The position numbers and the translations under genes are program-made. The notes below the pieces were generated by a model that saw only the letters and a list, made by a program, of their open reading frames with translations, was not told the DNA's origin and did not search any database. From Nitrosarchaeum sp. (GTDB lineage Archaea; Thermoproteota; Nitrososphaeria; Nitrososphaerales; Nitrosopumilaceae), in the NCBI GenBank assembly GCA_025699025.1, contig JAILWJ010000003.1:1-64000 (forward strand): 64,000 nucleotides of DNA, read 5' to 3'. Numbering within the stretch: position 1 is the first letter of the stretch; each line of letters starts with the position of its first letter. Positions 31,249-31,582 of this stretch are shown piece after piece.

Positions 31249-31416
31249 ATGTGTGAATGCTCAAAAATACATTTGTATGAAGTTGAGTTCAAGCTGGACG
31301 GAATGGTAGTAGTTCCAACACACAAGAATTGTGGATTTGCACTTGATGAAAAGCAATCAGACAAGTTCCAAAAAGAACTAGTAAAATCATGGGGCTTTGA
31401 GGACGAAGAAGAGTAA
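31249..31416 (+). CDS. 55-residue small acidic-tailed protein
   Basis: It starts MCECSKIHLYEVEFKLDG and ends KSWGFEDEEE. There are three Cys (C2, C4, C27). A CAAATATAG TATA-like element lies ~26 bases before the ATG, and codon use is normal. Not recognised; the C-x-C start and single later Cys could bind a metal. Confidence 0.55.
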   Translation: MCECSKIHLYEVEFKLDGMVVVPTHKNCGFALDEKQSDKFQKELVKSWGFEDEEE

Positions 31417-31417
31417 G

Positions 31418-31440
31418 TAAAAAAGAAAAGAAAAAGTTGT
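31418..31440 (-). terminator. T-rich terminator of the metallothionein-like gene
   Basis: The minus strand after the stop at 31448 is a series of T tracts, with only ~30 bases separating the convergent stops. Confidence 0.45.
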
Positions 31441-31447
31441 ATTTTCT

Positions 31448-31582
31448 TTAATGTTCTGCGTTTTTGCAAATATCTAATTTACAATCACATGTAGCGTCAC
31501 AGTAACATTCTCCTTGCATAGCACAGTCACATTCAGTACCATTGTCTGCTTGTGCTGCACATCCACATGCTGCGTCGGACAT
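31448..31582 (-). CDS. Metallothionein-like 44-residue Cys-rich protein
   Basis: A 44-residue protein with nine Cys, eight of them in C-x-C pairs (C6-x-C8, C18-x-C20, C26-x-C28, C32-x-C34) plus C39, and many Asp/Glu. There are no long hydrophobic stretches. This is the composition and C-x-C spacing of a metallothionein, which would bind Cu(I), Zn(II) or Cd(II) in thiolate clusters. Ammonia oxidisers depend heavily on copper, so copper buffering is the natural hypothesis. A TTTTAAAATA TATA element lies ~25 bases before the ATG. I know no named family that it belongs to. Confidence 0.75.
   Translation of the reverse strand: MSDAACGCAAQADNGTECDCAMQGECYCDATCDCKLDICKNAEH

Follow-up and report, generated by a model that had tools for sequence, protein, structure and literature searches.

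The metallothioneins of Neurospora crassa and Agaricus bisporus (Binz-Kagi family 8) are small, Cys-rich fungal copper-thioneins that contain the arrangement CxC-x5-CxC-x3-CxC (PMC4755600). The beta domain of vertebrate metallothionein carries nine Cys, as four CxC pairs and one single residue, and in mammals this domain favors Cu(I) and makes Cu6/Cu7S9 clusters (PMC9846682). MymT of Mycobacterium is a 4.9-kDa protein that was unannotated at first and for which binding of up to six Cu(I) has been predicted (PMC7558416), and bacterial SmtA/BmtA (PF02069) is a metallothionein of the cytosol, likewise small, with about nine Cys. The proposed cytosolic Cu(I) store of copper-dependent oxidizers, soil ammonia-oxidizing archaea (AOA) included, is Csp (PF03860) (PMC7785015, PMC7554672), which was acquired in Nitrososphaerales (PMC7554672). 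In the literature searched, no description of an archaeal metallothionein was found. The Nitrosopumilaceae include very abundant marine archaea, and ammonia oxidation runs on copper. In a survey of AOA genomes, no known copper efflux was found to be encoded, and the mechanism of copper tolerance in N. maritimus was called into question (PMC9723733).

Here, a gene for a 44-aa peptide was analyzed in the window, that is, the whole 64-kb stretch of Nitrosarchaeum sp. DNA under study (Table 1). Positions 18-34 of the peptide reproduce the fungal CxC-x5-CxC-x3-CxC spacing; the fungal copper-thioneins, however, are eukaryotic, are 26 aa long with seven Cys, lack the N-terminal CGC pair and have a final spacer of x2 rather than x4, and the sequence relation is confined to the Cys. 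The count of nine Cys is likewise that of the vertebrate beta domain, but in vertebrates that domain is joined by a second, alpha domain. MymT, similarly small, belongs to an unrelated lineage with which no shared sequence family was found; SmtA/BmtA differs in using His and a zinc-finger part, and Csp in being a four-helix bundle rather than a CxC peptide.

Table 1. Positions of the Cys-rich gene, its flanking features and the fused copy of the module
Feature	Position	Strand	Remark
Metallothionein-like protein gene	31448..31582	minus	44 aa, nine Cys, four CxC pairs
Promoter BRE/TATA AACCTTTTAAAA	31599..31620	minus	TATA core 29-30 nt before ATG
T-rich tract TTTTTCTTTTCTTTTTT, archaeal-type terminator	about 31419..31435	minus	3' of stop codon
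Upstream neighbor, 294 aa	31636..32520	minus	nucleotidyltransferase-like fold and helical domain
Convergent neighbor, 55 aa, MCECSKIHLYEVEF...	31249..31416	plus	conserved; function unassigned
Distal neighbor, 495 aa	29700..31187	minus	signal-peptide-like start, repeated IPSWIKNNAGWWADG motif
Fused protein, 454 aa, this genome	L031:5489-6850	minus	second module copy at C-terminal end

A conserved nine-Cys gene with its own promoter

Translation of the minus strand confirmed the preliminary description of an acidic 44-residue protein with nine Cys and four C-x-C pairs, which had named no strand. The encoded peptide, MSDAACGCAAQADNGTECDCAMQGECYCDATCDCKLDICKNAEH, has Cys at positions 6, 8, 18, 20, 26, 28, 32, 34 and 39, eight of them paired and one single, which together make up 20.5% of its residues. 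Asp and Glu number 9 against 2 Lys and Arg, one Tyr represents the aromatic residues, and the only His is C-terminal and unconserved in the family. The plus-strand reading of the same segment is interrupted by a stop. Four ordered CxC pairs in an open frame occur at a single place within the window and in none of 30 first-order Markov simulations of it. Judged from its sequence and that of its relatives, the Cys-rich open reading frame is a real gene. The candidate explanation of a chance open reading frame was ruled out by homologues, dN/dS and the window simulations.

A search of 101 related genomes identified homologues in 58 of the 61 genomes of the same family. The search among AOA that the preliminary description had proposed was positive for the Nitrosopumilaceae, profile A1 matching 162 of 171 such genomes in a class-wide sample, and negative for the other AOA families, with the Nitrososphaeraceae and Nitrosocaldaceae lacking the gene. 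Outside the Nitrosopumilaceae, the profile matched 0/129 genomes of the class-wide sample and 0/170 of a phylum-wide sample. The nine Nitrosopumilaceae genomes lacking the gene are all drafts, split into 30 to 350 contigs. Named carriers among the matches listed were Nitrosopumilus, Nitrosopelagicus, Nitrosarchaeum, Nitrosotalea and Cenarchaeum.

Cys spacing that varied among relatives had been named beforehand as evidence against a metallothionein-like protein. Instead, all nine Cys and the spacing CxC-x9/10-CDC-x5-CxC-x3-CxC-x4-C were retained in 80 of 80 strong homologues (E below 1e-4); the pattern used to extract these sequences demanded the Cys, but every strong match nonetheless satisfied it. 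Conservation extends to the Asp of CDC (80/80), a Met (70/80) and a Gln (71/80). The median dN/dS of 0.15 over 960 pairs indicates purifying selection, and all nine Cys codons alternate between TGT and TGC without ever encoding another residue. The term metallothionein-like is thus upheld by the invariant spacing, the codon switching without Cys loss, the purifying selection and the promoter described below.

Scans for the Cys pattern were applied to viral and genome contigs. In viral contigs, matches were just low-complexity, unrelated or stop-containing; in genome contigs (at least 120 stretches), family-like sequences were present in thaumarchaeal records only, among the matches listed. Viral or bacterial relatives were ruled out by these scans, among the matches listed. 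A 456-aa frame on one viral contig (L140:363-428, minus strand) includes a Cys-rich stretch, CDCGCGPDCSCQTGCTCGCDGC, that is apparently unrelated to the archaeal family.

The TATA box of the gene, CTTTTAAAATA, is inside the promoter element listed in Table 1, and the T-rich tract separates the gene from the end of the convergent 55-aa gene. A TATA box and terminator belonging to the gene itself had been claimed at the outset, and both are not only present but recur in relatives. Each of the 97 stand-alone genes has a TATA core that starts 28-31 nt ahead of its ATG, with an A-rich stretch resembling a BRE on the 5' side of the core; the adjoining 30 nt further upstream contain a TATA core in just 2/97. 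A run of five or more T within 60 nt past the stop was observed in 94/97 stand-alone genes, compared with 61 expected from shuffling. Given the fixed position of the TATA core relative to the ATG, the transcript is probably leaderless or nearly so.

In the window, the TATA box sits within an imperfect inverted repeat, TACTaa..ttAGTA, of which no second copy was found elsewhere in the genome with up to 3 mismatches allowed. A copper regulon acting through this repeat was rejected, there being no second site in the genome at that tolerance. Between TATA and ATG, Nitrosotalea-type loci (L017, L087, L150 and L232) share a conserved palindrome resembling GGGAGATCYCC, which differs from the repeat of the window's clade. 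The two elements are perhaps lineage-specific operators, and a search with the Nitrosotalea-type promoter motif marked essentially the Cys-rich gene only.

Relation to described families and a membrane-tethered form

The peptide has the features by which metallothioneins are generally described, being 44 aa long and 20.5% Cys with CxC motifs and few aromatic residues, and the conserved Cys arrangement expected of such proteins was found in all 80 homologues. The vertebrate-type model PF00131 did not match the window protein and matched 2 of 22 family members with a best E value of 0.018, below the Pfam threshold. PF02069 gave no match up to E 10; the conserved His ligands and CxxC zinc-finger part that characterize SmtA/BmtA are absent from the family, in which no conserved CxxC was found. 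The fungal arrangement of seven Cys, CxC-x5-CxC-x3-CxC-x2-C, is departed from by a last spacer of 4 and two extra Cys. No match to PF03860, the four-helix Cys motif (DUF326) of Csp, was found in the peptide or its genome, and NCBIfam and PDB likewise yielded no match for the peptide. Since the protein answers to the general description of a metallothionein yet fits none of the described families, it is best described, on present comparisons, as the representative of a new Nitrosopumilaceae-specific metallothionein-like family with free and membrane-tethered forms.

The membrane-tethered form is represented in this genome by a 454-aa protein consisting of a signal peptide, an ectodomain, a transmembrane segment at about 315-338, basic residues and a tail that ends in the module. 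Outside the module this protein is Cys-free, and its ectodomain had no PDB match at E≤0.001. The single-pass membrane protein is found throughout AOA (L266-L305), with the module ending its tail in many Nitrosopumilaceae. Homologues without the module, from other AOA families and several Nitrosopumilaceae genera, have tails that end differently, with an RGSMPKGWKPS-like sequence in some and a different domain in L273. The fused modules of L078, L259 and L275 are of the free-peptide type and retain the start Met, as though the membrane protein had acquired a copy of the free gene; the module is thus mobile within genomes. MymT is not known to have a fused membrane form.

Given the order of segments in the 454-aa protein, the fused module is predicted to face the cytosol; the 44-aa peptide has no signal peptide, and a cytosolic location is likewise indicated for it. 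A secreted disulfide peptide was rejected as an identity for the gene product on these two grounds.

Such modularity, with one form joined to a membrane-protein tail, would also suit a Zn-binding structural or adaptor module, which would mediate protein interactions or regulation instead of storing metal and whose fused form would be a membrane anchor for partners. The conservation of some non-Cys positions (the Asp of CDC, Met and Gln) and the different domain at the place of the module in the L273 lineage are in keeping with this role. However, searches of Pfam and NCBIfam matched the peptide to no family of zinc ribbons or fingers, its small size and high Cys content (20%) do not suit a protein with one or two structural zincs, and zinc fingers do not usually have four CxC pairs. 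An adaptor function is therefore regarded as improbable.

Copper carriers of the host and the proposed metal preference of the peptide

Archaeal AmoA is encoded in the same genome, which identifies the host as an ammonia oxidizer. The HMA domain of CopA/CopZ is absent from this genome and, with it included, from 52 of 61 Nitrosopumilaceae genomes, whereas 13 of 14 control genomes contain it; the other nine family genomes either have both the Cys-rich family and HMA domains or are without the Cys-rich gene. Csp was found in none of the Nitrosopumilaceae genomes searched, a contrast that is loose given that only three genomes outside this family gave a Csp match. The preliminary description had proposed a new copper buffer in a copper-dependent ammonia oxidizer. 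AmoA bears out the second part, and the spacing and HMA absence make a copper role plausible.

The fungal spacing, the beta-domain make-up, AmoA, the absence of HMA domains, the published lack of efflux and the pattern of Csp occurrence together point to a Cu(I) buffer as the best account of the family. With moderate confidence, and by analogy with copper metallothioneins, we propose a Cu(I)-thiolate buffer that is both cytosolic and membrane-tethered. The 44-aa peptide would be made from its own promoter and, with its nine Cys as ligands, would fold round a cluster of some six or seven Cu(I). It would keep free cytosolic Cu(I) extremely low and hand copper back to cuproprotein assembly, and through the fused module that copper-binding site would be present at the membrane too. 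Metal binding and the preference for Cu(I) are here what we infer, as is the stoichiometry of six or seven, for which the mammalian beta domain with its nine Cys serves as the analogue.

Several observations weigh against the Cu(I) buffer. No copper gene adjoins the Cys-rich gene, its neighbors encoding a nucleotidyltransferase-like protein and proteins of unassigned function, and the repeat round the TATA box, being unique in the genome, revealed no copper regulon. A simple tie to ammonia oxidation is opposed by the Nitrososphaeraceae and Nitrosocaldaceae, which live without the gene. CxC pairs alone, furthermore, cannot tell Cu(I) from Zn(II) or Cd(II). A zinc/cadmium metallothionein like bacterial SmtA/BmtA would use an M3Cys9 cluster to buffer Zn(II) and trap Cd(II), for which nine Cys are enough (M3S9): the mammalian beta domain holds three Zn or Cd (PMC9846682), and Pseudomonas metallothionein makes Zn3Cys9His and Cd4Cys9His clusters (PMC7387436). 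The archaeal family, by contrast, has a single unconserved His, no CxxC zinc-finger part and no match to PF02069, and its hosts are unusually copper-dependent and mostly without HMA copper carriers. We consider a zinc/cadmium function unlikely, albeit the most serious of the rivals to the Cu(I) buffer.

Metal binding could also be secondary to a role as a thiol redox buffer or as a scavenger of NO and reactive oxygen or nitrogen species. AOA are without catalase (PMC9723733), and gamma-glutamylcysteine synthesis has been described for Nitrososphaerales (PMC7554672), from which it follows that the Nitrosopumilaceae may need another thiol. An invariant nine-Cys spacing would be needless for redox chemistry, yet it is fixed in 80/80 homologues, and little credence is given to this role.

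The near-universal metallothionein-like gene is a concrete, testable candidate for the copper tolerance that the survey could not explain (PMC9723733). It would give Archaea a conserved metallothionein-like family, reveals a membrane-tethered form of a metallothionein-like module and illustrates that tiny Cys-rich genes escape current family libraries. The wider idea that a family-wide copper-thionein, in free cytosolic and membrane-tethered forms and perhaps born in place, stands in for the CopZ/CopA route in most Nitrosopumilaceae is given a slim chance only.

Genomic setting and possible origin of the gene

The order 294-aa gene, Cys-rich gene, convergent 55-aa gene and 495-aa gene was found at nearly all stand-alone loci. 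The modeled 294-aa protein (pLDDT 93) is nucleotidyltransferase-like (E 2e-4, TM about 0.4), with structural matches to ANT(4')/KNTase and, more weakly, to Hailong HalB; no Pfam family was matched. Its gene is present in AOA at large and is older than the Cys-rich gene. Given that it is conserved in AOA lacking the Cys-rich gene, no functional link between the two is claimed. The 55-aa protein has the pattern MCxCSKxHLYEVEFKLDG...VVPTHKNCGF, with one CxC and one more Cys, and had no confident Pfam match (best E 0.11); its gene also occurs in AOA without the Cys-rich gene.

Genomes of two other AOA families, f8 and f2, lack the Cys-rich gene but still have the 294-, 55- and 495-aa genes near one another. 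On this comparison, the Cys-rich gene was probably gained in this slot in the Nitrosopumilaceae ancestor. In several outgroups, the 294-aa gene is followed by an adenosine-specific-kinase-like gene, a name that reflects sequence recognition and not a family search.

In the outgroup genome G062, the sole profile match, a weak one (E 0.21), is next to the 294-aa gene, where it falls within the kinase-like gene but in another reading frame; this match was spotted after the fact and is weak evidence. With a DNA matrix of the Cys-rich core, the same spot ranked first of 9,672 positions in the locus, and the corresponding ranks in other outgroup loci were third and thirtieth in two and low in two more. 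An origin of the Cys-rich gene by overprinting of the kinase-like gene is possible, as a weakly founded speculation. At L324:1522-2034 (minus strand), an adenosine-specific-kinase-like gene occupies the slot that holds the Cys-rich gene in Nitrosopumilaceae, and its alternate frame reads SGSCLCSHTCKCISNKC, which resembles the Cys-rich core.
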